From positions 1 through 33,635 of the IMG/VR virus record IMGVR_UViG_3300043544_000319: a stretch of DNA of 33,635 bases, one strand, 5' to 3'. Position numbers and translations under genes: made by a program. The notes under the pieces are model-generated. The model saw only the letters and a list, made by a program, of their open reading frames with translations, made no database searches and was not told the origin of the DNA. Below are positions 7,448 to 33,635 of this stretch, in pieces. The stretch's first letter is position 1. The number at the start of each line of letters is the position of its first letter. The stretch is from a virus.

Positions 7448-10324
7448 ATGGAACGCGAGCGTGAACTAACCTTCAACATTCGGATGGACGGACTTGAGAA
7501 GCTCAAGTCCGAACTCGAATCGCTCGTACAAACGCTCCAATCGCTCCTGCCCAGCGTGCCCGCGCCGCCGACGGGCTGGGGCGTCACGCCGTCGGGAATC
7601 GCTGTGCCCCCGTCAGCCACCTCCATCCCGTCGAGTCTCCCAGTAGCCCAGCAAGCGCACGCGCTGGGCATGCAAGCCACGCAACAGAACCGACCACCCA
7701 CGCCGCCACCCAACCCTGCGCAGACAATCCATCACGCGACGCAACCGTATGCGCAGGCGGCTCAGCAATTCGCGCAGGCGCAGCAGCAGGCACAGCAGGT
7801 ACAGCAGGCGCAACAGCAGGCGCAACAGGCGCAACAGCAGGCGCAACAGGCGCAACAGCAGGCGCAACAGGCGCAACAGCAGGCGCAACAGGCGCAACAG
7901 CAGGCGCAACAGGCGCAACAGCAGGCGCAACAGGCGCAACAGCAGGCAGCCACGCCCCCGACTGATCTATACGAACAGGTAGTCACGATGCTTCGGAACA
8001 TCGCGAATATCGGGTACGCAGGCGGGCGTATGGGACTCGGCACTTGGGCGATGGGACAGGTCGCGTCTGGAATTGCTACTGCGCTGCAATCCATCCCCGC
8101 GCTCGGACTCGCGCTCAATCCCGCCACGATGGCAGCCGCCGTGGCGATGTTCCTTCTCTCCCCGTCGCTCAACGCCGTCGGACGCAACACTGGCGCGGAG
8201 ATGATGGCGGGCGTCACAGGGCAAGGCGGCACCACGCTCAGTAGCATCTTCTACGATGCCATCACTGCGAACCCCATCTTCCGCGTGCTGTCGTGGATAC
8301 CGTTCTTCGGCCCCCAGATGGAAGCCGCCGTGCAGGGACACGCGCGGTTCCTGCGTGCCTACGAGTCGCAACTCGTCGCCGCGCTCATCACGCAACAGCG
8401 ACCGCTCATGACGCTTCCGCTCGCAGGCATAGGCCCCGCGCTCGGTATCTGGGGCGCGAGCGTCGACCTGCTGGGGTTCTCACCCTACTACAGCGCCGTC
8501 GAACTCCAACGCGCCGCCGACCTCATGCTGCGCGGGTTCCGATTCCAACAGGGATTCGAAGTGCGCGGCGGACTGGTGCCCGAATTCGTAACCCGCACGC
8601 TCAGAGGCGAACTCGACTTCTTCACCCTGAGCGACGCGGAACTCACATCGCTACTCCAAGCGCCGACAAGCATGCGCCTGAGGCGGCATCGCATCGGCGC
8701 CGAAATCGACATCCCCGAACTACGCGGCTATCGGTACATCGAGCAACTGCTCGATACGGGCTATGTGCCCGAAACACCCATCGTCACGCCCACAGCCGTC
8801 GGACGCGCCTTTCCAAGCATGCCCGCTAACATCCTCGAATTCACGGGCATGCTCCGACACACGCTGTTGCAGCGGTTCCCGCTGCTCGGCGGCGTGGTCA
8901 ACCCCATCGTCGAGCAGGTACTCGACGAACTCGTCACGGCGGTCAACACGCCTGTCATGATGCAGCTCTTCGGCGCGGGCGCGGTCAACAGCTGGGATTA
9001 CGCGCTCATGATGCTCGCGCTGCAGGGCGACCCGCGACTGGTCTCGCTCCAGTTCGCCACAGCGCCCGACGGGCGGAGCCTCCGCGACATCGCGTGGGAG
9101 ATGTTCTACCTCCAGCGCGGGCAGCAGCTCGCAGGCGTCGAGACCGCACGCGCACAGATCCTGCTCGCGCAAGCCCAGCGATTCGGCACCATCCGTGATA
9201 CGACTGCGGCGTTCACGCGCCTGTACGAGGCGACAGAAACCGAAGCGCGGCTCATCAATCGGCGCATCGCGAACATAGGCATGTATGCGCCTGCGCTGAT
9301 GGACACGCCCGAGTTCAGGCAACTGCTCGTCACGGCGGAGCAGCTCGCGCTTCGCCTGCGCGAAATCGCGGTGTCGATGGCGCAGTTCCGCGTGCAGGTC
9401 ACGGAGACAACCAGCGCGTTAGCGACCGTGCAGGCGGAGTACGGGCTCGTCATCGCGCGACGCGGCACAGCGGATACTGTCGGGGGCGCGATGCTCACAC
9501 GCGCTGAGACCCTTGTGCGCACGACCGACGCGCGAATCGCGGCGCTCCGCGAGCTTCAAGCGCAGGTCGGCGAGGTCGAAGCGATGCAAATCGAGACGCA
9601 AATCCAACAGCTTGAACTCCAGCGCATCGCGGGTCTCGAATCGATGGCGACCCCGCCGCCCACGCAGGAATGGCTCCGACGACGCGCCGCGACGCAAGCG
9701 ATACTGACCACCGCGCAGACCACCTTCGCACAGTTCGCCGACATCCGCGCCCTCTACGAATCGCTCATGCGCCAGACGGGCGAGCGGCTCCGCGCGATGG
9801 CGACGCATCGAGAGCGCATGCGCGAGCGCGGACTGTGGACAGAGGAGATGGAGACCCGATGGCGACAGGAGGCGATGCAACAGGTCATCGAACTCGCGCA
9901 GTACCAGCAAGCCTACGAGAACCGCTGGCTCGACCGACTCGTCGCGCAGGTCTGGAACGCGCCCGCACGCATGGACGCCGTCGCGGCATGGTTCACACGG
10001 CGCGAGGCGAGCCTGTTCTACGACATCGTGCCGTGGGCGTTCGGCGGCACGCGCGAACGCGCCCAGTGGATGCGCGAGACCGTGCCGATGATGTACCGCA
10101 CGCTCATCGGCAGACTCGGCACGCAAGAGGGATTCATCGAGACCGCTATGGCAGCCCTCATGGCGGGCGCACAGAACGCCTTCAGCGGCGACCTGCGCAT
10201 CCAAATCGTCGTCGAAGATTCGGGCAACCGACTCATCGACGCGCAGCAGGTACATCTGAACCTGAATAACCAGACGCGAGCGGTCGAATCCGTGACCGTC
10301 ACCGTGCCTGTGCCGACGCAATAG
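7448..10324 (+). CDS. Tape measure protein
   Basis: A 958-residue protein with the features of a siphophage tape measure. A helical N-terminus is followed by a glutamine/alanine heptad repeat at residues 120-161 and a hydrophobic region at about 195-245 (QSIPALGLALNPATMAAAVAMFLL). A long helical, coiled-coil-like middle (ETARAQILLAQAQRFG onward, to about residue 840) leads to a beta-rich end (RIQIVVEDSG). It sits after the tail tube gene and before a hub-like gene, the standard siphophage order. Start ATG 7448 abuts the previous stop with no separate ribosome binding site. Tape measure length normally scales with tail length; at about 1.5 angstrom per residue this would correspond to a tail of roughly 140 nm. 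Confidence 0.85.
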   Translation: MERERELTFNIRMDGLEKLKSELESLVQTLQSLLPSVPAPPTGWGVTPSGIAVPPSATSIPSSLPVAQQAHALGMQATQQNRPPTPPPNPAQTIHHATQPYAQAAQQFAQAQQQAQQVQQAQQQAQQAQQQAQQAQQQAQQAQQQAQQAQQQAQQAQQQAQQAQQQAATPPTDLYEQVVTMLRNIANIGYAGGRMGLGTWAMGQVASGIATALQSIPALGLALNPATMAAAVAMFLLSPSLNAVGRNTGAEMMAGVTGQGGTTLSSIFYDAITANPIFRVLSWIPFFGPQMEAAVQGHARFLRAYESQLVAALITQQRPLMTLPLAGIGPALGIWGASVDLLGFSPYYSAVELQRAADLMLRGFRFQQGFEVRGGLVPEFVTRTLRGELDFFTLSDAELTSLLQAPTSMRLRRHRIGAEIDIPELRGYRYIEQLLDTGYVPETPIVTPTAVGRAFPSMPANILEFTGMLRHTLLQRFPLLGGVVNPIVEQVLDELVTAVNTPVMMQLFGAGAVNSWDYALMMLALQGDPRLVSLQFATAPDGRSLRDIAWEMFYLQRGQQLAGVETARAQILLAQAQRFGTIRDTTAAFTRLYEATETEARLINRRIANIGMYAPALMDTPEFRQLLVTAEQLALRLREIAVSMAQFRVQVTETTSALATVQAEYGLVIARRGTADTVGGAMLTRAETLVRTTDARIAALRELQAQVGEVEAMQIETQIQQLELQRIAGLESMATPPPTQEWLRRRAATQAILTTAQTTFAQFADIRALYESLMRQTGERLRAMATHRERMRERGLWTEEMETRWRQEAMQQVIELAQYQQAYENRWLDRLVAQVWNAPARMDAVAAWFTRREASLFYDIVPWAFGGTRERAQWMRETVPMMYRTLIGRLGTQEGFIETAMAALMAGAQNAFSGDLRIQIVVEDSGNRLIDAQQVHLNLNNQTRAVESVTVTVPVPTQ
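7805..7945 (+). repeat. 21-bp tandem repeat in the tape measure gene
   Basis: Six exact copies of a 21-bp unit run from 7805 to 7930, with a partial seventh to 7945. Each unit encodes the heptad QAQQQAQ. The array is in frame, and its seven-residue period suits a coiled coil. Such an array can expand or contract in whole heptads without frameshift. Confidence 0.95.
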
Positions 10325-15714: not shown

Positions 15715-18700
15715 ATGCATGCGACTGCGTTGCTTGAGCGTCTGCTGGTACGACTCAGCGAGAAGCCGTGGGACGCCATCATGGCGGCGTGTCCCGACTG
15801 TCGCTGGATTACGCTCAAGCCGCACGGGCCCGATCACCCCGACTACCGCCATGTGCTGATTAAGCCCACGACGACGGGTTTCCGTGTCGTCTGGGCGGGC
15901 AACGCGAATCTCATGCATCTGCGCGTGCATGTGACAGAGGGCGGTCGCCGTCGCGTGCGCGAACCGATGGATGAGTCGAAGCGCGAGGCGCTGAGGCAGC
16001 GCGTCTCCGAATCGTGGGCGCAGGAACGCGACAAGTACGCACAAGCCGCGGCGAAACTGCTCGGATACGACGCTGAGACGCTCAAGCAGACCGATGCAGA
16101 TGACCTCGTGGCACATCTGCTTCGCGCCGTGCGGGTAGAGCGTACGCGACGCGAGCCTGAGAAACCGCAACGGGAACCGAAGCAGCCTGAGGCGGATGCG
16201 GAGACTCCGTCGGAGAAGTCGCAAGAGGACGAGGAGAAGCGCAAGCTCGCGCAGGCGGAGCGCATCCGTGAGGCGGCGGACAATATCGCGAAACGCGCAC
16301 TGGAAGAACTCGGGCTCGCCATCGGCGTCGACATCAAGGATGTACCCGAAGACTTGGGTCAGCGTCTGCGCAACTTGAACGAGGAGCAGTTAGAGGCGCT
16401 CGGGCTGCTGACGAACGAGCTGCGCAGGCACAAGGCGCGGTATGAGCGTGTCATGCGCGAGACTGCGCCGATGGCGACCTCGGCGTCGATTCTGACGGGG
16501 CAGACTGTCGACGATGAAGAGCTTGAGTCGGCGGTAGCGCAGGCGTGGCAGCGTGCGCGGAACACGGCGGAGCTGGAGACTGCCGCGCGGCGCAACATCG
16601 CGTTCTGGAATGCGTTTGACAACGCGGGTCGCGGCGTGCATGCGCGGTACAACAAGGGCGCGGCGGAGGCGCTGGCGAACCTCACCTTGCGTCACGCAGG
16701 CGCGGCGGTACACCCCGCGCTGGTGCAACTGCTGGGCGTCGAAGGCGCTGCACACGCGGCAGCGATATACCTCGCACAGCAAGCGCCAGACATCGAGTCG
16801 CTGACACGCGACATCGAGCAGACGCATGCGGAGTCGGCGCTGCGCATGCCAGCGGAGACGCTCCGCCGAGCGGAAGAGGAAGCGGAGCGCACGCGCCAAC
16901 TGATTGAAGACCTGCGCTCGCGCGATGCGCTCTCGGCTGCCTACGCGGGTCGACTCGCGGCGCGGAACACGCTGTACCGACAAGCCGTGCTGGGACAAGC
17001 CGCAGGATCGCTGGCGTTCACGGCAGCACTCGCCGACGCGCTCCGCAGAGGCACCTACAACGACGATGTGGTAGTGCAAGGCGTCGCGGATTCGTCTCGA
17101 CTGAACGCTATCGCAAGGCGGATGGGACTCAAGGAAGGTGACTACTCCATCTCGCGCACGCAGGACGGACAGACGCGACTCGTCATCAAGCGCGATGCGG
17201 TCGCACAGCTCATGAGACGCGCGACGATGGAGTTCAAGTCGGACGAGGAGGCGAAGCGCATCAAACGACACGAGCTGACGCTCGACGAGGACTGGCGTCC
17301 CGACGGGATGGATCCGACCGTGAAACTGGGCGAGGAGCAACGCGCGGCGATAGAGTTCGCGATGAAGCGCAAGCGAGTCGTATGGGACTTGAAGGCGGGC
17401 ATCGGGAAGTCGCTCTCGTCGATTGCGCTGGGCAAGCACCTGCTCGACACAGGACAGGTCGACGCGGTTATCATGATGGTGCCGAGCAATCTGCGCGACA
17501 CGATGCTGCACGAGCATCGCAAGTTCTTTGGGAACCGCATCCGTGTCGGCGTCGCGGGCGACCTCGCGCCTGAGAATCATGCGCTCGCCGACGCGCATGC
17601 AACGGGCGCAGAGGGGCGCCAGCGTCTCATTCGCGAGGGCGACGCGCAGTTCCTCATCGTGGGGCACGCCACCATCCGCAACGATGTCGACGCGATTATC
17701 GACCGTATCCGCAAGCACGACGGGCGCGTGCTGCTCGTACTCGACGAGGCGCACCAAGCGTTCACACCTGGCACGGGCGAAGCATCGCAGATTATGCAAG
17801 CGATGCAGAAGATTAGCGAGGCGACGAACGATAACACCTATATGGTCGCGATGACGGGCACGCCGATTCGCTCGCGCGTGAGTAATGTGCATCAGATGGT
17901 GAGCTGGGTCGAGCCGCGCATGATCCCCGAATCGAGCTTCCAGCTGGCGTTCGACGGGATCGGTCTCGGCGCGAGCGCGGTACACCACATCAAGGAGGAG
18001 AACCTGAACCGCGCCATCGACCCCATCGTCATCAGCGAGCATTACCAGCTGAATGTGAAGCGTCGCGATTTCGAGCATAGCGTTCCGCTCAGCACGCATC
18101 AGTTAGAGGAACTCCGTCGGATAACCGCTGCAGAGGACACGATACCTGCAGCGGAGCGCGATTACCAGCGTCTGCAGGCGATAGAGGACGGCGACCCTGA
18201 GCGCAACGCGCTGATTCAGCGTCTTCGGCAGGTGGTGGAGTCGGAGCATCAGCGCGACGACTTGCGCGAACTGCGCGACGCAGGTCACCATCCTGTCGGC
18301 ATCGTGTTTGCGAACTACCTATCGGGCGTGCGCACGATTCAGCAGGCGTTTAAGCCAGGCGAGGTGCTGACCTACACGGGCGAGGATAACGGGGCGCGTC
18401 GTCAGCAGGTACGCGCGGCGGTGAATGAACGCGCGATTGTGTCGGGCGGACGCGTCATCTTCGACGGGGGGGAAGGCGTTGCAATCCGAGTGAACCCCAG
18501 CGGCAGCGTGCGCGTGCGACTCGACGACGGGCGCGAGGTGACCGTGCGTCCTGAGCAGAACCCGCGTTCGGGCGTCAAGCTCATCGCGGCGACCTCCGCT
18601 GGTAGCACGGGGCTCAACCTGCAAGGCGCGAACTACATCGTCCACTACGGGCTGCCGTTCACGAAGGCGGAACTCGACCAGCGGAACGCGCGTGCATTTC

Positions 18701-22441: not shown

Positions 22442-23434
22442 ATGGTAGTCGTGACACTGTCGGATGCGGAAGCGGTCACGCGCGGGTCGCGTCCTGCGAT
22501 TCGCGTGGAGGTGCTACGCACGGGCGAATGGCTGCACGAGATGGCGCCTGAAGGGCGGCTCGTCGTTACGGAACGCGAGCTGGACGAAATCGTGCGGAAC
22601 TTCCGCGACGGGGTGTTCGGGTACGAGCTGCCCGTCAATCTGAACCACATGGACGATTCGACCGACGCGATCGGATGGGTCACGGCGCTGGAGCGTCAGG
22701 GCGAGTCGCTGTACGCGACGATTCGGCCGACCAGCGACGAGATTCTCGAACGCGTGCGTGATGGTCGTCTGCGGTTTGCCAGTGCGGAGCTGGTCGTGCG
22801 CGGTCGCGACCCTGAGACGCGTCGCGAGGTCACCGCACTCCGCGCGGTCGCTCTGACGAACCGACCGTACATCAAGCGCATGAACCCCGCACAGGTGGTC
22901 ACGCTATCGGAACGCGCTCGAACCGCAACCTATCAGGGAGGCTACAACACGATGAATACGCAAGGAACCGTACCTCTGGACGAGATTCGCGATTTGCGAG
23001 TGCGTCTGTCGGAGCTTGAGGAGCGGCAGTGGGAATCGGACAGGGACTTGCTCCTGTCGGAGTACGAGCATACCGTTCCGCCGTCGATATTGCGTCTCGC
23101 GCGGTACATCTTCGACTCGCTGCGCGGTCGCGTGGTGACGCTGTCGGATGTGCGCTCCGAGATGCCCGAGTCGCGGGTTGTGCGTCTGAGCGAGAACGCG
23201 CCGTCGGACGCGCGAGTCCCCGTCGAGGACTTCGTACTCGCGATACTGGAAGAGGTCTCGCAGATGGTTCCGAATCGCCCGCGCGTGAACTTGTCGGAGC
23301 AACCGCTACGGTACACGCTACGCACGGGCGAGGAACGCACCACGCGCGAACTCATCGCACGCGCGGAGCGCATCGCCGCGAGTGAGGGCATCACCTACGG
23401 CGAGGCAATCAAACGCGCTGCACGCGAGATTTAG
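22442..23434 (+). CDS. Prohead protease with scaffold region (Mu gpI-like)
   Basis: A 330-residue protein. Residues 20-150 match phage I-like proteases: VNLNHMDDSTDAIGWVTALE (candidate catalytic H69), then RLRFASAELV (candidate S114) and VTALRAVALTNRPYI. Residues 171-330 are helical and charged, as in internal scaffolds. An in-frame ATG at 22952 can give the scaffold alone. The peptide core h-x-L-S-[D/E] occurs seven times (at L6, L155, L189, L205, L234, L249, L284), mostly with V two or three positions earlier, and these could be self-cleavage sites. GGGAG 7-11 nt upstream supports ATG 22442; an in-frame TTG at 22391 lies inside the leader hairpin and is rejected. The decoration and capsid genes follow. 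Confidence 0.82.
   Translation: MVVVTLSDAEAVTRGSRPAIRVEVLRTGEWLHEMAPEGRLVVTERELDEIVRNFRDGVFGYELPVNLNHMDDSTDAIGWVTALERQGESLYATIRPTSDEILERVRDGRLRFASAELVVRGRDPETRREVTALRAVALTNRPYIKRMNPAQVVTLSERARTATYQGGYNTMNTQGTVPLDEIRDLRVRLSELEERQWESDRDLLLSEYEHTVPPSILRLARYIFDSLRGRVVTLSDVRSEMPESRVVRLSENAPSDARVPVEDFVLAILEEVSQMVPNRPRVNLSEQPLRYTLRTGEERTTRELIARAERIAASEGITYGEAIKRAAREI
22952..23434 (+). CDS. Nested scaffold protein from internal start
   Basis: This is the in-frame C-terminal 160 residues of the protease gene, starting MNTQGTVPLDEIRD. AGGGAGG at 22935-22941 provides a ribosome binding site about 10 nt upstream, just after a glycine-rich linker (TYQGGYNT) that ends the protease domain. Phage Mu (I/Z) and lambda (C/Nu3) make their scaffold in this way from an internal start. 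The product would be helical and carry five of the seven L-S-[D/E] sites. Expression of this form is inferred and not proven by sequence. Confidence 0.5.
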   Translation: MNTQGTVPLDEIRDLRVRLSELEERQWESDRDLLLSEYEHTVPPSILRLARYIFDSLRGRVVTLSDVRSEMPESRVVRLSENAPSDARVPVEDFVLAILEEVSQMVPNRPRVNLSEQPLRYTLRTGEERTTRELIARAERIAASEGITYGEAIKRAAREI

Positions 23435-25072: not shown

Positions 25073-25074
25073 GC

Positions 25075-25111
25075 GTAGCGGGTGCGCTCTGATGCGGAGC
25101 GCACCCGCTAC
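25075..25111 (+). terminator. Perfect 15-bp hairpin after the capsid gene
   Basis: GTAGCGGGTGCGCTC (25075-25089) pairs with 25097-25111 around the loop TGATGCG. It starts 3 nt after the capsid stop. No T-run follows. It could reduce read-through to the downstream genes or protect the 3' end of the abundant capsid mRNA. The stem composition resembles the hairpin at 22383. Confidence 0.65.
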
Positions 25112-25133
25112 CATGCACTACAGGAGGATAACG

Positions 25134-25715
25134 ATGCGAGTCTGGTGGGCGTCCGTACTGCTTAGCGAGCATGCAGCTAACCGCTCATACGAGCCGTTGG
25201 TGGAACGCGCTCGGAACGCGAAGAATCACATGGAACTCGGCGACGCACTGCTTGAACTGCACAAGCACGCCTACGAGCAGGACGACCCCGAACATCCCGT
25301 GCATAAACATCTGGACGACATTCTTCAGCACTACGCGAAGCATAACGAGAAGATGCTCAACGACGCGTTCCACTATCTGATAGGGAGCCACAGTGTCCGC
25401 TGGCAAGACGCGCATCGAACGACGCCGCACTTGAAGCATGTGTTCGGACTACTGGAGCGAACGCCGACGCTTCATGCGACGGTACATCTCGGTAAGTTCG
25501 CCGAGCATGGGAACTTAGATGCATTCGGATCAGCGCACGGGTGGCTCCTTCGTAATCCGCGCAAACACCATTACTTCGGCATGCACATCCTGCCTCACCT
25601 CAATCGCGAGCTGTCTCGCAGGCGCGTCTTTGTTAAGCCCTCGCATCCTTACCTGAAAATGATAAAGCAAGACTACGAAGATTTTGCTCGTAGGTACAGG
25701 GGGAGTGATGATTAG
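25134..25715 (+). CDS. Helical hypothetical protein with N-terminal RVWW tag
   Basis: A 193-residue protein, not assigned to a family. Its first 12 residues (MRVWWASVLLSE) match the N-terminal element of the AAA+ and VWA proteins further downstream. The rest is histidine-rich and helical (ELGDALLELHKHAYEQ, HLDDILQHYAKHNEKMLNDAFHYLI). AGGAGG 5-10 nt upstream fixes ATG 25134; an in-frame ATG at 25092 lies inside the hairpin region. It directly follows the capsid gene, separated by the hairpin, so it is likely made at lower level. A packaged internal head protein is possible, but this is inference. Confidence 0.75.
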   Translation: MRVWWASVLLSEHAANRSYEPLVERARNAKNHMELGDALLELHKHAYEQDDPEHPVHKHLDDILQHYAKHNEKMLNDAFHYLIGSHSVRWQDAHRTTPHLKHVFGLLERTPTLHATVHLGKFAEHGNLDAFGSAHGWLLRNPRKHHYFGMHILPHLNRELSRRRVFVKPSHPYLKMIKQDYEDFARRYRGSDD

Positions 25716-25717
25716 CC

Positions 25718-26146
25718 ATGTCGTGGGTGACGCCAGCGCAGGTACGGTTCTATGTGCGCAATCTGGAGCCGATTGACGATTCCGTGTTGCAGGCGGCTAT
25801 CGATGCTGCGGAGTCGTACATCCGTTCGCGTTTGGTACGGCTGTACCCGCGCATGATGGCGACGAACGAGCCTGCAAAACCGCCTATACCGACGATAGCG
25901 ATGCAGTTGGCGGCGGCGCTGGTGGAGGCGCGAACGCTGGCGATAACCAACATCGGGGCGAGCATGAACCCCTACGCACAGCAGTTGTACCAGCAGGCGG
26001 AAGACGAGTTGCAGCGACTGGAACGGGGCTGGGCGCATGTGCTGGGCGAGTCGGTCGAATGGATGCTTCCAGTATTCGCGCCGCTGTCGCAGCCGACGCC
26101 CGTGCGGAGCGTTCGGAGTGTACGGCGCACGGGAAGCGGATGGTAA
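25718..26146 (+). CDS. Head-tail connector protein (gp36/DUF1320-like)
   Basis: A 142-residue protein after the capsid genes. The pattern PAQVRFYVRNLEPIDDSVLQAAIDAAESYIRSRL, then LYPRM, PPIPTIAMQLAAALVEARTL and YQQAEDELQRL matches small helical adaptors that dock under the portal (DUF1320 and gp6-like families): paired helices with an acidic start and a tyrosine-proline turn. Length is typical. It begins 3 nt after the preceding stop, and GGGGGAG lies 12 nt before the ATG, somewhat far. The arginine/serine-rich C-terminus (VRSVRSVRRTGSG) is probably disordered. Confidence 0.7.
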   Translation: MSWVTPAQVRFYVRNLEPIDDSVLQAAIDAAESYIRSRLVRLYPRMMATNEPAKPPIPTIAMQLAAALVEARTLAITNIGASMNPYAQQLYQQAEDELQRLERGWAHVLGESVEWMLPVFAPLSQPTPVRSVRSVRRTGSGW

Positions 26147-26149
26147 TCT

Positions 26150-26644
26150 ATGACGCGATGGCGGGAGATGCTCGTCGCTTTGGAGCGCGGTCATGAGACC
26201 TGCGAATATGAGCTGTTTGCGGAGTGTGTGCGCGACTGCGCGTTTGCGTGGTATCTCAAGGCGTACCATATCGAGACCGAAGAGGCGGAGTCGCTGGCGA
26301 ACGAGGTCGCGGTCAAGCTGTGGGTAAACGCGCCGCGCATCCGCTTAGAGAGCGCAGAGCGGTACATCCGTCGCGCGATTGCGAACACGGGTCGTGAGTA
26401 CCTGCGCAAGCGGAAGGAGATTGCATACAACGAGTGGGATATTATGTGTGCGATGCACGCTGAGGCGTCTGGTGATGCGCTGGAATGGACGGCGACTCTG
26501 GCAGTGATGTCGCCAGAGGAGCGTGAGGTGGCGGAACGGCTCGTGTCGGGTCAATCGCGCACGGATATAGGACGCGAGCTGGGCATGAGCAGTAGGTATC
26601 TTGACGCGGTCATCGAATCGATTCGTCGGAGGCTGAAAGAATGA
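26150..26644 (+). CDS. Sigma-70-family-like factor (ECF-type)
   Basis: A 164-residue protein with the two-domain plan of small sigma factors. Residues 45-90 resemble region 2, which binds core polymerase and the -10 box: EEAESLANEVAVKLWVNAP, then SAERYIRRAIANTGREYLRKRKE. Residues 120-164 resemble region 4: SPEEREVAERLVSGQSRTDIGRELGMSSRYLDAVIESIRRRL, with a helix-turn-helix at 136-160. The similarity is by pattern only; some phage transcription or packaging HTH proteins look alike. The position among head genes is unusual and suggests late-gene timing. It starts 3 nt after the connector stop and overlaps the next gene by ATGA. Confidence 0.65.
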   Translation: MTRWREMLVALERGHETCEYELFAECVRDCAFAWYLKAYHIETEEAESLANEVAVKLWVNAPRIRLESAERYIRRAIANTGREYLRKRKEIAYNEWDIMCAMHAEASGDALEWTATLAVMSPEEREVAERLVSGQSRTDIGRELGMSSRYLDAVIESIRRRLKE

Positions 26645-26988
26645 AGCGACCGCCGATTGTGCAGGAGATTCTGCAGGTGGAGGACATCGACGCGCTGTTG
26701 GAGCGTGTCCGTGATGTTGGCGTCGCATGCGCCATGGCGCGTCTGGGCGATGCGGATCCGCGCGAGCTGCTGCAGCACCTGTTGGACTTAGCCGAGTCGT
26801 ATCAGGGCGACCCCGACTCTTCGCCGTGGATGATACTGGTCGGTCTCATCGATGTGCTTGCGGATGAGGTGCGCAACAGCGACGCGCCGAGCGACACGGA
26901 TTTGGTCTCACGAGTCGACGCGCTGGTTTCGTCTGCGTATACTCATCATGGAGCGTCTCATGCGAATCGTTACATCGAATCGGATTAA
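26641..26988 (+). CDS. Small helical hypothetical protein
   Basis: A 115-residue acidic, mostly helical protein, unrecognised (VEDIDALLERVRDVGVACAMARLG, ELLQHLLDLAESYQ, WMILVGLIDVLADEVR). It begins on the ATGA of the sigma-like gene and ends 29 nt inside the AAA+ gene, so it belongs to the same operon. GGAG inside its end is the ribosome binding site of the ATPase. A partner or regulator of its neighbours is the simplest guess. Confidence 0.65.
   Translation: MKRPPIVQEILQVEDIDALLERVRDVGVACAMARLGDADPRELLQHLLDLAESYQGDPDSSPWMILVGLIDVLADEVRNSDAPSDTDLVSRVDALVSSAYTHHGASHANRYIESD
26938..26959 (+). promoter_or_regulatory. Possible -10 box and ribosome binding site for the ATPase
   Basis: CGTATACT (TATACT 26938-26943) lies 16 nt before ATG 26960, with GGAG at 26950-26953 between them. 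It lacks the following T and CG of the main motif. An in-frame ATG at 26948 would be only 4 nt from the box, too close, so 26960 is preferred. Confidence 0.35.
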
Positions 26989-29584
26989 TCGCAAGCGTCG
27001 CGTCTGGTGGCGCACGGTGCTGTTCTCGGAGCGGTACGAGTACCATCCGAGTATCCCGCACCATTCGGGGCTGCGTCAAGACCCGATGTCGCGTGGTCTG
27101 CACCCTGAGAAGCGAATGGTGCATCGCGAGGGCACGACCTTCCAGCAGACTTACTGGGTGCGCGGCGAGCGCGGCGAGCCGCTCGAAGCACGCAGGCAGA
27201 AGTCTTCACCTGCACCACCATCCATACCACCTCCTCCTTCCATGTCTCCTCCACAGGCGCCCGCGTCGTCGCACGACGCGGGCGCACCTCCAACGCCTAC
27301 AGAGCTGGAAGTCGAACAGCTCCCTGAAGAGGTACGCGAGTCTCTGCGCAACGCCATCGACCGACTGAACCCGATGGAGCGCCAGATGATGCTCGCACAT
27401 CTCGCCGTGCGTATCCACGAGAACGGGAACGCCGTCGGACACCCCGTGATGATGCTCTCCGCCCCTGGCGTGGGCAAGACCACGCTGTGGGAATCGATGA
27501 TGAACATGAGCGACGCCATGTCGGAACAGGGCGCCGCGCCGTTCCGCACCCACATCGTGAATGTGCAATCGGCAGTCTACAACATTACCGAGCAGATGGG
27601 CGCACAAGCTATCGAGGAGGGCATGGTGCGGTTCATGTTCACGGCGGATTTGGAACACAAGATTCAGTATTGCAAGCAGCATGGCGTACCGCTGGTGCTG
27701 GTGTTCGACGAGGCGACGAAGGCGCCCCAGATTCTGCAGACGATGCTGTCGCTCATCACGAACGGCATCATCGCTGACCGTCGGCTGGGTGTTCCGTTCC
27801 GCATCGTGATGATCGGTAACCGCGCGGACTGGGAAGAAGAGATGGGCAAGATGCGCTCCTCGCTGGTTCCGTTCGCGGACAGGTTCCTCTACTATGTGAC
27901 GACGCCGTCGGAAGAGGACGAGTATGTACGCGCGATTAAGTCGTTGTTTGAGCAGGAGGCGTCGCGCGAAGTGGAAGGTGCGGGTGAGCGTCTGCGTCGG
28001 TTCGTTCTGGATTATGACGAAGAGGCGGAGCGAGAAGCGGAAGAGGCGCGTCGGGCGCGTCAGGCATCGTCGCCTGAGCTGGCGGGCGCGGCGGGCGAGC
28101 TGGAACAGATGCGGGCGAAACTGGAGACGGGTCGTCCCGCACGCGAGGTGCTGCGCGAGCATCAAGGGCTGATGACGCTGCTGAAACTGATGTCGTCGCG
28201 CGGGCTACGCTCGGATCTCCGTGCGGAATGCGCAAAGACGAACTACCGCATCGCGAGTGCGCTCATAGACGCGATGCTATCAGGCGACCTCGCGGGGATG
28301 TGGCATAACTTCAAGTCTGACCCGAACTATATGCCCGATTACGCCTCGATGGATTCCGACCGCAAGCATATGTCGCCGCGGCGCGTGATGATACTCGCCG
28401 ATCAGCTGTCCGTGTTGTTCGCGCTGGGATACGACTTGGACTCGCCAGAGGTGGAGCGGTTCCTCGCATGTAATGTGGGACGCCCGAACATCCCGAAGAT
28501 TCACGAGATTATCCAGACGGCACTCAAGCCGCGAGGCGCGGAATCGGTCGAAGCGATTATGGACGACGCTGCAGGGAGCGAGGCGCATCACGGTCGGACA
28601 GTGCATCGCGCGACGCGGGTACACGACGCCGCGACGCATGAGGGCGTGTTCATCACCCATTCCGACCGCGCGAAGGAGGCGGGCGCAAAGGATACCCGCG
28701 CGACCTTTAAGAACCAGCCGATTGAGACCGTCGACGACTTGATTCGCGTGCTATCCAGCGACGACACGCCCCCATCGCAGCAACCCTACGGGTTCTCGCT
28801 CCCACTGCACTATCTGGATACCGACACGGGCAAGCTGCATGTCGGCACGAACCCCGACGGGACATCCGAACTGCACATGCCAGGGTTCGACTCGCACGCA
28901 TCGGTCGACCTCACGCGCTCGAAGCACCTGCTCCACTTGGCGGGTCATCACGGCGCGCCTGCGGCGCATGCGCTACACCTTGAAGCGGTCGACCCGCGCT
29001 CGCCGCTGGGACGGGGCGTGCGTGCAATACTCGGTTCGGGCAACCCCGAAATCGTCGCACAGCGCCTGCACGACACGCACACAGAGACGGAACGCAGTCT
29101 CAACCGTCTCGACGGTCTGCTGGAGACTCTCGCACAGAACCACGATGCATCGACGGTGCATGCGATTTCGCGCGAGGCGCATCGCGCGGCTGCAGGGATG
29201 GGACTGCTGTCGATGTTCCATACGCCCGTCATCGATGTAGAATCGGGGCAGGAGATACTCCCAGAGGAGATTCAAGACGAGTACCGCGCCTACCATGAGG
29301 ATGCGCGTCGCAAGCAGCACGCGGAACTCGGTCGACTGGCAGGTCATGCGCCTGAGCATGTGGCGCAGGTGCTGTCGCATCCCGCCGTGAATGTCGCGCC
29401 GTTGCATGCGAGCGCACGCGGCAGAATCCGAGACACGATAGAACGGCACTGGGAGACGGTCAATAATGTGTGGGAGCATCTCTCGCCCGAGCATCGCGAG
29501 GAGCTGCTCCACGCACTGCATCTGCTGAGCGCACACGGTCACCTGACCGATGCACCGTATGGTACAATCGCCGAGAGACGATGA
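26960..29584 (+). CDS. MoxR-type AAA+ ATPase with N-terminal phage tag
   Basis: An 874-residue protein. Residues 1-70 carry the shared tag: RVWWRTVLFSE (14-24), LHPE (47-50), FQQTYWV (61-67). A proline/serine linker follows. The AAA+ module has Walker A APGVGKTT (168-175), Walker B LVLVFDEA (245-252), sensor 1 N287 in MIGNRAD, and downstream helices. A charged coil (EEAEREAEEARRARQ) and long alpha-helical C-terminal regions without known domains complete the protein. MoxR ATPases act as chaperone-like remodellers with a VWA partner, here encoded next and overlapping by ATGA. The length is far above the usual 300-350, so the extra domains probably handle phage-specific substrates. GGAG supports ATG 26960. 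Confidence 0.85.
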   Translation: MRIVTSNRINRKRRVWWRTVLFSERYEYHPSIPHHSGLRQDPMSRGLHPEKRMVHREGTTFQQTYWVRGERGEPLEARRQKSSPAPPSIPPPPSMSPPQAPASSHDAGAPPTPTELEVEQLPEEVRESLRNAIDRLNPMERQMMLAHLAVRIHENGNAVGHPVMMLSAPGVGKTTLWESMMNMSDAMSEQGAAPFRTHIVNVQSAVYNITEQMGAQAIEEGMVRFMFTADLEHKIQYCKQHGVPLVLVFDEATKAPQILQTMLSLITNGIIADRRLGVPFRIVMIGNRADWEEEMGKMRSSLVPFADRFLYYVTTPSEEDEYVRAIKSLFEQEASREVEGAGERLRRFVLDYDEEAEREAEEARRARQASSPELAGAAGELEQMRAKLETGRPAREVLREHQGLMTLLKLMSSRGLRSDLRAECAKTNYRIASALIDAMLSGDLAGMWHNFKSDPNYMPDYASMDSDRKHMSPRRVMILADQLSVLFALGYDLDSPEVERFLACNVGRPNIPKIHEIIQTALKPRGAESVEAIMDDAAGSEAHHGRTVHRATRVHDAATHEGVFITHSDRAKEAGAKDTRATFKNQPIETVDDLIRVLSSDDTPPSQQPYGFSLPLHYLDTDTGKLHVGTNPDGTSELHMPGFDSHASVDLTRSKHLLHLAGHHGAPAAHALHLEAVDPRSPLGRGVRAILGSGNPEIVAQRLHDTHTETERSLNRLDGLLETLAQNHDASTVHAISREAHRAAAGMGLLSMFHTPVIDVESGQEILPEEIQDEYRAYHEDARRKQHAELGRLAGHAPEHVAQVLSHPAVNVAPLHASARGRIRDTIERHWETVNNVWEHLSPEHREELLHALHLLSAHGHLTDAPYGTIAERR
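29563..29580 (+). promoter_or_regulatory. Possible internal promoter of the VWA gene
   Basis: TACAAT (29563-29568) is 12 nt before ATG 29581, with CGAGAGAC between acting as a weak ribosome binding site. It is similar to but not a full copy of the leaderless motif (no T after the box). Confidence 0.3.
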
Positions 29585-31416
29585 TCAAGTCGCGCGTGGT
29601 CTGGTGGGATTCGGTCATCCTGAGCGACCCGTCGCACGGAGGCAGGCTCCATCCCGAACCGCACATGGTGCGCGGGACGCACGGGATGTTCCAGCGGCGG
29701 TACTGGGTACTTCCAGAGTCTGCCATGCATGCCCGCGCGGAGTCAGGAACGCCGTCGGAACCCGCGCCTGCATCGTCGTCGCAGTCTCTGGCGCGAGCGC
29801 AGGAAATCGTCGGGAACGCCTTCACACGACTGCGCTCGGTGTTCCCGTCCCTCTCACGCTTGCTCCCGTTCCAGAAGATTGTCTACACGAACGAGCTGGA
29901 TACGATGGCGGTCGACCCGTTCGGACACCTCTACATCTCGCCAGACTTCGTGACGCGCGAGATACCGCGAATCATGGCGGAACAGCACCAGAAGCGCACG
30001 GGACAGAAGATAAGCGAGTCTGACCTCGTGCGGGCGACCGTCGACATGGTGCAGGTGGTGCTGTTGCACGAGGCGCTGCACCTCGCGCTCACCCACTTCC
30101 CACGATTCGATGACTATAAGCGTCTCAATCGCGATATTATCGCCGAGCTGGAACGAGCAGGGGTGAGTCCGCACTCGGTATTCAACGATGTGGCGGATCT
30201 GGAAATCAACACGCTCATCGAGGGGCTGCTGAAGTCGATGCGCGAGGCGCGTGTCGTCTCGCCAGAGGCGAACTTCGATTGGGCAATACACAAGCTTGAG
30301 GATTGCGATCCCTACCTGCCGTGGGAGTCGAACTACCGCACGCATGCGCTGAACCAAATCGCAGAGGCAGAGTCGCAGAAGTCGCAACAGTCGCAGTCGT
30401 CGCAGAAGGCGAAGTCGCAGTCGGGCGGAAGTCGCTCGCAGTCGGGCGGAAGTCAGTCGCAGCAGTCGTCGCAGTCGCAGCAGTCGTCGCAGTCGCAGCA
30501 GTCGTCGCAGTCGCAGTCGGGCGGGGCAAAAGGCAAGCAAGCATCCCAGAGTCCGTTGGGGAGCGACATGCTGGACGAGAACCATGAGCTGGTGCGTCGC
30601 ACGGTCGAGCGTCGCGCGGCAGAATCGGGCATGACGCCTGAGGAATACATGGAGCGTGAGCGGAACCGCACGGCACGCGAGTCGCACGCGGCGTCGGACG
30701 AGATGAGTCGGAAGGCTGCCAAGGGCAGCGCAGACGCGCAGCGTCTCATCAGCACGATTCGGGGCATGCGTCGCGTGAATTGGCAGCAGGTGCTGCGCGA
30801 GTTCATGAGCGCATCGATGGGATTCGCGCGTCGATGGCGTCCGAACATCGCCATCGGACGCAGGCACCCGTCACAGCTCGCCGTCGGGAATGTGCTGCTC
30901 CCGCGCGGGATACGACGCGACTCGATGCGTATACTGGTACTCGTCGATGCGTCGGGCTCCATAGACGACGCGATGCTCAGCAAGTTTCTGGGTCACATGC
31001 AAGACCTCGCCGAGAACTCTGGCGCGGATGAGGGCGTTCAGTTTACCTTCGTGCCGTTCACAAGCACCCTGCACGCTGAACACGCGATTGAGGTTAACGC
31101 TGAGGAACTGCGCAGCCGAATGAAGGACATCGCGAAACAGTTGCAGGTATCTGGCGGGACGGATGTGACGGGTAGTCTCATGCAAGCCGTCGATGAGCTA
31201 ATCGTGCCGCGCCAGAGGGATGAAGAGGGCGGGTACAGCGGCGTGCTGGTGCTAACGGACGGGGAGACCAGCTGGGACGGCGACTGGGACGCACAGTTCC
31301 GACAGAAGACGCAGGGGATGCCCCTGCGAATCGGTATTACGGAGAATACCTACGGTCAGTATTGGCAGTCGCATCCGTCGCTTCCGAATCTGTCGTTTCC
31401 GCTTCCGATGGGGTAG
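29581..31416 (+). CDS. VWA-domain protein with HExxH metallopeptidase-like domain (DUF2201 type) and phage tag
   Basis: A 611-residue protein. The tag is at residues 5-43: RVVWWDSVILSD, LHPE, MV, FQRRYWV. The N-terminal domain has LLHEALHLALTHF (HEALH 163-167), a zinc-peptidase motif of the DUF2201 family. A serine/glutamine linker covers about 262-316. The C-terminal VWA domain has a complete MIDAS: DASGS (456-460), T527 in GGTDVTG, D560 in LTDGE. This is the usual partner of MoxR ATPases, delivering or adapting substrates. ATG 29581 overlaps the ATPase stop; earlier in-frame starts lie within the ATPase gene. The tail overlaps a convergent minus-strand gene by 80 bp. Confidence 0.88.
   Translation: MIKSRVVWWDSVILSDPSHGGRLHPEPHMVRGTHGMFQRRYWVLPESAMHARAESGTPSEPAPASSSQSLARAQEIVGNAFTRLRSVFPSLSRLLPFQKIVYTNELDTMAVDPFGHLYISPDFVTREIPRIMAEQHQKRTGQKISESDLVRATVDMVQVVLLHEALHLALTHFPRFDDYKRLNRDIIAELERAGVSPHSVFNDVADLEINTLIEGLLKSMREARVVSPEANFDWAIHKLEDCDPYLPWESNYRTHALNQIAEAESQKSQQSQSSQKAKSQSGGSRSQSGGSQSQQSSQSQQSSQSQQSSQSQSGGAKGKQASQSPLGSDMLDENHELVRRTVERRAAESGMTPEEYMERERNRTARESHAASDEMSRKAAKGSADAQRLISTIRGMRRVNWQQVLREFMSASMGFARRWRPNIAIGRRHPSQLAVGNVLLPRGIRRDSMRILVLVDASGSIDDAMLSKFLGHMQDLAENSGADEGVQFTFVPFTSTLHAEHAIEVNAEELRSRMKDIAKQLQVSGGTDVTGSLMQAVDELIVPRQRDEEGGYSGVLVLTDGETSWDGDWDAQFRQKTQGMPLRIGITENTYGQYWQSHPSLPNLSFPLPMG
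30366..30530 (+). repeat. Ser/Gln-rich repetitive linker in the VWA gene
   Basis: Short in-frame repeats of CAGTCGCAGCAGTCGTCG and relatives encode SQ/QQS units between the metallopeptidase-like and VWA domains. Probably a flexible linker, with replication-slippage length variation expected. Confidence 0.85.
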
Positions 31417-32033: not shown

Positions 32034-32927
32034 TCACCCCGACTTGCGCTTCAGCTGGTGTTCTATCTCGTGTATAGCGTTGATAATCATCCCCCGACGC
32101 TGTTGCGGAAGTGCATCGCTCAACAAGGAACGGAGTTTGGAGAGCGCGTACTCTGACTTCCACTCCTTGATGACATTTAGCGTTCGCTCGAAATCATGGT
32201 CGGAGACGGTTCTCAACGCGAGAACCGACACCAGCCCGTCGATAACCTGCTCTGCAACGCGAGCGGGTATCTGACCTTGAACCGCCTGCTCAAATTTCGA
32301 CCTCTCGTAGCTCAACGCGTAAAGAATGAAGGTTATCTCGCCTTCGAGCCTGCCCCACTTGCCTTGCAGCGCGAGTCCGAGCGTCTCCAACGCATCGAGT
32401 ATCGACTCCCTTGCAGGCGTGATTCCTTTACCGAACAGGTTTTGCATCGTGACGATAAGGTAGCTTGCCAATTGGTCGATGGCGAAGCGAGCCGTCCATT
32501 CGTCGGACGCCTTATCGGCGACCTCGCGAATCAAGCGCGGCGCACGCGGATTTATAGAGGCCGCTATCGTATGGATGGCGGCGGTTCGTACATTCCCGTC
32601 GGAGGGTTCGGTCGCCAATCGCACGAGCAGCGACTCTATCTCTGGATACCCACGCAACAGGTAGCGTTGCAGGAACAACATCGGCTTCAAATCATACGAC
32701 TTCGTTCCCTCATACTTTCGCACCAGCGAGCGGTAGACCGACTCCTGTACCGACGGGGTTTGCATAAGTTTCCGTGCCAGCTTCTGCTCCTTGCGCGATT
32801 CCGCCGTGGCGAGGTCGCCGCCTATGACGGCAGTGACCGCATCGTCATGCTCGCGCGAAGGGTTCATCCAGTACCGCTGGGTCACACCGTCCCGTCGCAT
32901 CTTCCGTACCTGATACTTGACGCTCAT
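32034..32927 (-). CDS. HEAT-repeat protein A
   Basis: A 297-residue minus-strand protein. Its first residues (KMRRDGVTQRYWM, 9-21) resemble the second half of the tag on the ATPase and VWA proteins. The body is a series of helical pairs of HEAT/ARM type, for example ESLLVRLATEPSDGNVRTAAIHTIAASI, RAPRLIREVADKASDEWTARFAI, ESILDALETLGLALQ, and DHDFERTLNVIKEW. HEAT proteins act as scaffolds or nucleic-acid-binding solenoids. TACAAT ends 6 nt before ATG 32927. Its paralogue lies directly upstream on the same strand, and 148 bp are identical between the two, indicating recent conversion. Confidence 0.78.
   Translation of the reverse strand: MSVKYQVRKMRRDGVTQRYWMNPSREHDDAVTAVIGGDLATAESRKEQKLARKLMQTPSVQESVYRSLVRKYEGTKSYDLKPMLFLQRYLLRGYPEIESLLVRLATEPSDGNVRTAAIHTIAASINPRAPRLIREVADKASDEWTARFAIDQLASYLIVTMQNLFGKGITPARESILDALETLGLALQGKWGRLEGEITFILYALSYERSKFEQAVQGQIPARVAEQVIDGLVSVLALRTVSDHDFERTLNVIKEWKSEYALSKLRSLLSDALPQQRRGMIINAIHEIEHQLKRKSG
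32477..32624. repeat. 148-bp block identical to 33387-33534
   Basis: Copy in HEAT gene A, direct repeat at an offset of 910 bp. No mismatch occurs over 148 bp, while the sequences just outside differ at many positions. Confidence 0.95.
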
Positions 32928-32941
32928 CGCCGAATTGTACC
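32928..32941 (-). promoter_or_regulatory. Leaderless promoter of HEAT gene A
   Basis: On the minus strand: GG, TACAAT (32939-32934), T, CGG, CG, ATG 32927. It fits within the 22-nt gap between the two HEAT genes. Confidence 0.6.
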
Positions 32942-32949
32942 GCTGACTA

Positions 32950-33635
32950 TTAGTTGAGATTCAGCCGATGTTTTATCTCGGCTACAGCGTCGAAGACCAT
33001 ATCTCGACGCCCTTTCCTATCTAAAGCGTTCCACAGAGAACGGAGCTTGTCGAGCGCGTACTCTGACCCCCACTCCTTGACGACATTCAGCGTTTGCTCG
33101 AACATCTCATTAGTCAAGTCTCCTGACGAGAGAACCGACATCAGCCCGTCGATAACCTGCTTTTCAACGCGAGCGGGTATCTGCCCTTGAGTCGCTCGCT
33201 CGAAATCGAAACGCTTGTAGTCCAGCGCGGCAAGGATGGAGCTTATCTCGTCTTTGGGCTCGAACCACTCGCCTTGCAGCGCAAGACCGAGCGTCTCCAG
33301 CGCATCGAGTACCGCCTCTCTTGCAGGCGTGATTTTCTTTCTGATTAGGTGTTCCATCGTGACATGAAGTGAGGCTGCCAATTCGGCGATGGCGAAGCGA
33401 GCCGTCCATTCGTCGGACGCCTTATCGGCGACCTCGCGAATCAAGCGCGGCGCACGCGGATTTATAGAGGCCGCTATCGTATGGATGGCGGCGGTTCGTA
33501 CATTCCCGTCGGAGGGTTCGGTCGCCAATCGCACAAGCAGCGACTCTGCGCCAGGATACCCACGCGACAAGTAGTCGCGCAGGAACAACATCGGCTGCGC
33601 ATCGAACAACTTCGTTGTCTCATACCGTTGCACCA
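32950..33635 (-). CDS. HEAT-repeat protein B, partial
   Basis: Minus-strand paralogue of protein A that runs off the right edge, so the N-terminus and any tag are missing; the first visible residues QRYETTKLFDAQPMLFLR align with KYEGTKSYDLKPMLFLQ of A. At least 227 residues are visible. The two proteins align end to end without large gaps, with an identical central block (SLLVRLATEPSDGNVRTAA to TARFAI) and more divergent flanks. TAA is at 32952-32950, and gene A follows 22 nt later. Tandem duplication is clear. Confidence 0.78.
   Translation of the reverse strand, partial: VQRYETTKLFDAQPMLFLRDYLSRGYPGAESLLVRLATEPSDGNVRTAAIHTIAASINPRAPRLIREVADKASDEWTARFAIAELAASLHVTMEHLIRKKITPAREAVLDALETLGLALQGEWFEPKDEISSILAALDYKRFDFERATQGQIPARVEKQVIDGLMSVLSSGDLTNEMFEQTLNVVKEWGSEYALDKLRSLWNALDRKGRRDMVFDAVAEIKHRLNLN
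33387..33534. repeat. 148-bp block identical to 32477-32624
   Basis: Copy in HEAT gene B. See the partner block; the repeat is in frame and in the same orientation in both genes. Confidence 0.95.

Follow-up and report, generated by a model that had tools for sequence, protein, structure and literature searches.

A short N-terminal segment is shared by otherwise unrelated proteins encoded in the window, by which we mean the whole 33.6 kb stretch analyzed here (33,635 nt, from an IMG/VR virus record), which has the gene order of a tailed phage. The shared segment is real and not a product of chance, and its core recurs in the protease and scaffold of the same phage. Co-variation of this motif between phages supports well the interpretation of the segment as a capsid-targeting signal. 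Specifically, we consider it likely that its first half is a cleavable propeptide by which cargo would be targeted to the head, cut, packaged and ejected, and that its second half is a separate module.

A shared N-terminal segment on unrelated proteins

The window encodes a terminase, an SNF2-type helicase, a portal, a Mu-I-like head protease fused to the scaffold and the major head protein (phrog_1005), followed by a head-tail adaptor, a sigma-like factor, an AAA ATPase and a VWA protein with a metallopeptidase domain. HEAT proteins are encoded on the strand opposite to the ATPase and VWA genes. A large protein at 7448–10324, probably the tape measure, carries a long run of QQA/QQQA repeats close to its start.

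Comparison of the MoxR-like AAA ATPase (26960–29584, plus strand) with the VWA protein (29581–31416, plus strand) confirmed the original prediction, sequences and coordinates included, that both share RVWW..V[LI][LF]S[ED] followed by LHPE..MV...FQ..YWV in identical order. In the ATPase the two halves span residues 14–67, with RVWWRTVLFSE at residues 14–24 and LHPEKRMVHREGTTFQQTYWV at residues 47–67 (27098–27160, plus strand). The VWA protein starts at ATG 29581 and has its first half, RVVWWDSVILSD, at residues 5–16 and its second, LHPEPHMVRGTHGMFQRRYWV, at residues 23–43 (29647–29709, plus strand). Relatives support the ATPase start at 26960, since this ATG is kept in all of them whereas ATG 26948 is lost in L040. 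A tblastn search of the window with the ATPase N-terminus retrieved only the ATPase and, at E 0.012, the VWA segment, and in relatives the ATPase and VWA starts match each other at E about 8e-6. The family match of the ATPase is weak (AAA_5 E 0.03; phrog_1297 4e-5), its AlphaFold model as a single chain was not usable (pLDDT 40), and a search for its relatives in bacterial genomes found none.

The relatives of the window phage comprise about 25 contigs, most of them more than 90 percent identical, and the tag is retained on every ATPase and VWA protein seen among them. Because these relatives all belong to one close group, conservation within it says little. The spacer between the ATPase halves has indels in relatives, part of SIPHHSGLRQD being missing at ten loci, and both halves are kept.

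As predicted, the first half also opens the accessory gene at 25134–25715 (plus strand), whose start reads MRVWWASVLLSE. This gene encodes a basic protein of 193 residues (pI 9.1), predicted to be all-helical. It is present in the window and in contigs L005 and L031, and the same slot is empty in six other contigs. The start position was deduced from contigs without the gene, whose intergenic sequence matches the stretch preceding it. Across the three sequences the first 12 residues, the predicted propeptide (25134–25169, plus strand), are invariant and several of the next seven are variable; in the structural model residues 1–16 are disordered and the remainder is all-helical. A Foldseek search with this protein returned helical repeats only, with nothing below E 0.05. 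The region 25073–25717 shows a presence/absence polymorphism: only some group members carry the gene, in the slot between the genes for the major head protein and for the adaptor.

A search for the tag on further proteins of the genome, which the original prediction had called for, revealed two locations missed at first: residue 12 of the helicase encoded from 15715, and seven copies in the protease/scaffold. The second-half-like element of HEAT protein A was also confirmed. This element, KYQVRKMRRDGVTQRYWM (32865–32918, minus strand), comes without a protease site in a protein that starts with MSVKYQVRKMRRDGVTQRYWM, and both HEAT copies in relatives open with KYQVRKVRRDGV[AS]QRYWV. The two HEAT-repeat proteins lie in tandem (window 32034–33635, minus strand; L003 7102–8939, minus strand), the second being truncated by the window end.

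V-x-[LF]-S-[ED] forms the core of the first half. In the 28 proteins other than the protease (about 10,490 residues), [VL].[LF]S[ED] has exactly four matches, always within residues 8–24: at residue 8 of the 25134 protein, residue 12 of both the helicase and the VWA protein, and residue 20 of the ATPase. When the proteins were shuffled, a mean of 0.10 N-termini carried the core and never four (3,000 trials). A secretion signal peptide was rejected, since the motif also lies internally in the protease/scaffold and the protein bodies are of cytoplasmic enzyme types. Matches outside the phage group in a degenerate IMG/VR DNA scan for the RVWW first half had a stop inside or shortly after, or no convincing gene start, and RVWW therefore looks group-specific.

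The motif in the head protease and its predicted use

The head maturation protease with its fused scaffold (22442–23434, plus strand; 330 residues; phrog_976) matches Mu-like_Pro (PF10123) with 34.6 bits against a cut-off of 25.2. It lies upstream of the major head protein, as in Mu-I-like systems, with phrog_1005 next but one. The seven copies of [VL]-x-L-S-[ED] in this protein, all on the plus strand, are VTLSD at residues 4–8 (22451–22465), VTLSE at residues 153–157, the end of the protease domain (22898–22912), VRLSE at residue 187 (23000–23014), LLLSE at residue 203 (23048–23062), VTLSD at residue 232 (23135–23149), VRLSE at residue 247 (23180–23194) and VNLSE at residue 282 (23285–23299). 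Shuffled versions contained a mean of 0.066 copies and at most 2 (20,000 shuffles). The motif classes had initially been picked by eye; an unbiased enumeration of three-residue gapped patterns, blind to the tag, agreed, with V.LS ranking first in the protease (6 copies against 0.2 expected, p 7.5e-8, 1755 patterns). An apparent FAE repeat in the protease and portal of contig L024 (MCP 43 percent identical) was dropped, the enumeration having given no significant motif there.

We propose that the first half acts as a capsid-targeting propeptide at the N-terminus, 12–24 residues long and with V-x-[LF]-S-[ED] at its end in each carrier. Its predicted length is 12 residues in the 25134 protein, 16 in the helicase (MHATALLERLLVRLSE, 15715–15762, plus strand; site VRLSE, residues 12–16), likewise 16 in the VWA protein (MIKSRVVWWDSVILSD, 29581–29628, plus strand; site VILSD, residues 12–16), and 24 in the ATPase (MRIVTSNRINRKRRVWWRTVLFSE, 26960–27031, plus strand; site VLFSE, residues 20–24). 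The propeptide would recruit these four proteins to the prohead, probably through contact with the scaffold portion of the protease-scaffold protein, and inside the prohead the head maturation protease would cut it at V-x-[LF]-S-[ED]. By analogy with T4 gp21 ([LI]-x-E) and phiKZ/SPN3US ([SA]-x-E), cleavage would most likely occur on the C-terminal side of the acidic residue. The same protease would also cut itself and the scaffold at the seven motif copies, and the mature proteins would remain in the head until their ejection together with the DNA. Behind the predicted cut comes the second half, LxPExxxVxRxGxxFxQxYWV, which would stay on the mature protein; our guess is that it serves in binding to DNA, to the capsid/shell or to the portal, or as an ejection signal.

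Repeated scaffold copies would fit self-association equally well, and V-x-LS-[ED] could then be a scaffold-scaffold docking motif, through which the tagged proteins dock uncut and perhaps leave the prohead again as assembly factors. One report does propose that MoxR/metallopeptidase-vWA pairs of jumbo phages aid virion assembly (PMC7824862). We nevertheless regard docking of this kind as unlikely, because the motif is also found at the protease N-terminus and at the protease domain end, where self-cleavage is expected, because the tag terminates in an [LI]-x-E type of site, like that of T4, and because its carriers in other phages are of effector types (DarB, PARP and polyvalent proteins).

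Predicted site and protease in other phages

Motif co-variation between protease and tags, as expected if the head protease cleaves a capsid-targeting propeptide, was observed in other phages. The protease/scaffold proteins of Lalka8, phiMa and a Calidithermus prophage contain 7, 6 and 6 copies of AKA, respectively, and 0, 0 and 1 copies of the window motif; the window protease/scaffold contains no AKA. Lalka8 and phiMa are Thermus phages, and the prophage is one of Calidithermus chliarophilus. Tagged proteins of these AKA phages have AKA ahead of the same second half (LRLAKAHQSPLFPEPHVVRRGGKVHTQRYWV, versus VILSDPSHGGRLHPEPHMVRGTHGMFQRRYWV in the window). The Calidithermus tags carrying AKA are MPRLTLRLAKAHQSPLFPEPHVVRRGGKVHTQRYWV, which compares with VILSDPSHGGRLHPEPHMVRGTHGMFQRRYWV of the window VWA protein, and ERFAKARAGLVPHRRAVNRGGKTHIQTFWV; both genes lie between the protease and scaffold genes. 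Both tag halves are also present on the DarB protein of Lalka8, with ELLAKAEQ at residue 11, MDLVRLYQELLAKAEQ and later LVPEKRVVERGGKVFVQTYWV. The protein phiMa_19 has only VVKAK in place of AKA. In virus contig L059, I.KA and KAE are the repeats of the protease, and IEKAE and IVKAE precede VRKIVERGGKKFLGTYWV in a polyvalent protein.

This polyvalent protein (L058 1334–5062, minus strand; L059 1–2730, plus strand) combines topoisomerase IB with other domains. IEKAE, IVKAE and IMKAA recur between its modules, an arrangement suggestive of a polyprotein that the downstream-encoded head protease would process.

Among homologous helicases, the window has LVRLSE and Lalka8 LLAKAE (aligned site ALLAKAE), each before an RWITLKPHGPDxPDY block, which in the window is RWITLKPHGPDHPDYRHVLIK (15802–15864, plus strand) and follows the site. 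Two features of the helicases fit less well: in Lalka8 the site is 80 residues into the annotated protein, and AKA is absent at the aligned place of the Calidithermus helicase. In its longer form, RWITLKPHGPDxPDYxHVxI, this N-terminal block behind the site is found in the helicases of the window phage, Lalka8 and, diverged, Calidithermus (window 15802–15864; L053 1134–6281, minus strand); functionally, it may be a counterpart of the YWV element.

Profile searches of phage proteins had also been suggested by the original prediction. With a profile of the window group, the best outside match was Lalka8 DarB (E 5e-4, 3,566 ORFs), and a 31-residue piece of the ATPase compared with 50,697 phage records matched Lalka DarB proteins only, at about 60 percent identity and with a weak E (0.06). 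A second-half profile built from four Thermus/Calidithermus sequences ranked the window ATPase first (E 1.2e-5), followed by the PARP protein of Lysinibacillus phage LysYB1 and the L058/L059 polyvalent protein; the VWA second half was not recovered by this cross-phage profile. DNA scans for the second half gave two matches in IMG/VR, both to one polyvalent protein, and five in genomes, of which the two from Calidithermus are real. Protein-level tblastn searches of annotated phages with the window protease and VWA protein gave no match.

The LysYB1 protein (M3_0224; L055 35494–38112) is a PARP-domain protein whose gene adjoins that of the portal, and it starts with a second-half element. By comparison with T4 Alt, it is a candidate head-packaged ADP-ribosyltransferase.

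The bodies that follow the tag thus differ, being topoisomerase IB (L058), PARP (LysYB1), a methyltransferase-helicase (DarB), an AAA ATPase and a VWA protein. On the HEAT proteins, and apparently on the LysYB1 protein, the second half occurs without the first, and hence without the site, which identifies it as a separate module. The original prediction had seen in the segment a targeting or docking signal comparable to that of T4 internal proteins. The capsid-targeting part of this idea is supported, because outside the protease the tag core, which is the phage's own protease/scaffold repeat, is confined to N-termini and is swapped in other phages; the notion of one single tag gave way to two separable elements. 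We have accordingly split the interpretation, the first half being a likely removable propeptide and the second half a distinct element, as it lies behind the predicted cut and occurs alone.

The carriers elsewhere (DarB, polyvalent proteins and a PARP) are relatives of packaged proteins. We would give an even chance to the broader reading that unrelated tailed phages use a portable two-part cargo address, composed of a short N-terminal peptide with the site of their own protease, which would vary with that protease, and a constant V-x-R-x-G-x-x-F-x-Q-x-Y-W-V module. If so, packaged and injected proteins could be read from a genome alone by matching the protease/scaffold repeat to N-termini. 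Injected head proteins are normally known only through proteomics (virion proteomics was not found in the Lalka8 paper), and such a rule would predict them for uncultured phages and point to early anti-defence functions. Short portable tags could also be used to load enzymes into phage heads.

Relation to known packaged proteins and to MoxR-vWA pairs

The window tag likely combines a T4/P1-like capsid-targeting propeptide with a second conserved module. As with the capsid-targeting sequence (CTS) of T4 IPI, IPII and IPIII, which are processed by gp21, a common short N-terminal sequence is found on unrelated proteins of one phage. In T4 this sequence ends in [LI]-x-E, the gp21 site; in the window it ends in V-x-[LF]-S-[ED], the putative site of the Mu-I-like protease. 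L-S-E within the window site also conforms to the T4 rule. T4 IPIII needs ten N-terminal residues, ending in the gp21 site, and an aspartate at the propeptide end stopped processing (PMC9026906), yet the predicted VWA propeptide ends in D. In T4, too, small basic accessory proteins differ among relatives, and the internal proteins of T4-like phages, variable and basic (PMC9026906), are similar in character to the 25134 protein. Unlike in T4, the tag, unrelated in sequence, is carried by large enzymes (SNF2 helicase, AAA ATPase and VWA-metallopeptidase) and is followed by an extra conserved module after the site, and the protease, of Mu-I-like type, forms one protein with the scaffold.

Head-packaged antirestriction proteins make up the P1 Dar system (DarA, DarB and Ulx), to which the Lalka8 DarB homologue with its two tag halves provides a link. 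P1 DarB is packaged via its N-terminus, the first 30 residues of which suffice for a reporter, and the Dar N-termini are apparently without a clear consensus (PMC9024508). N-terminal residues are removed from DarA and from the P1 capsid protein, a loss attributed to the prohead protease (PMC12810830). In the window, by contrast, several proteins carry a clearly recognizable tag, which agrees with the motif of the protease. Pfam and PHROGs scans of the larger proteins of the window, which may be incomplete, showed no DarB homologue or fusion, helicase and DNA methyltransferase being separate proteins, and did not recover the combination of DarB with DarA/Ulx homologues.

N-terminal propeptides with several copies of a cleavage motif are also described for giant phages (PMC10052503, PMC9026906). 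The window phage, with its predicted propeptides, resembles phiKZ and SPN3US, which are giant phages, in that many of their head proteins have such propeptides, with several copies of [SA]-x-E or A-x-E. To our knowledge, these phages share no RVWW or YWV element. Polyvalent proteins (Iyer et al. 2017, PMC5512222) are represented among the carriers of the second half elsewhere, namely the L058 topoisomerase polyvalent protein and the LysYB1 PARP protein, whereas the carriers in the window are mostly single-function enzymes.

The ATPase and VWA genes are adjacent and overlapping, and an AAA ATPase, despite its weak family match, thus stands beside a metallopeptidase-VWA protein, as in the neighbouring gene pairs of jumbo phages, whose vWA protein also has an N-terminal metallopeptidase domain (PMC7824862). 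MoxR-vWA pairs are known in phages (PMC2147016, PMC7824862), and the shared segment could accordingly be a partner-binding or oligomerization arm of a MoxR-type chaperone pair with no link to the head. This we consider very improbable: the first half also opens the unrelated 25134 gene, the core opens the helicase and is the protease motif, and the second half is found on DarB and polyvalent proteins of other phages. Still less credible is chance, or a functionless recent gene-start duplication, conceivable as that is between neighbours such as the ATPase and VWA genes, given that shuffles never reached the observed counts, that the tag core is kept in relatives despite the spacer indels, and that other phages carry the tag as well, with a different site in place.

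Read as a capsid-targeting propeptide, the tag suggests that the MoxR-vWA pair and the SNF2 helicase are virion cargo or are active inside the prohead. By analogy with jumbo phages, in which the pair is proposed to be a virion assembly chaperone and for which excerpts of that report describe no head-protease tag (PMC7824862), the pair could also work in assembly without being injected, and the tag would still bring it to the prohead. In the VWA protein itself, VWA, DUF2201 and DUF2201_N matches all scored above cut-off, the latter two making up the N-terminal metallopeptidase domain. A low-complexity SQSQQSSQSQQSS linker (window 30400–30650) separates this domain from the VWA domain in the middle of the protein.
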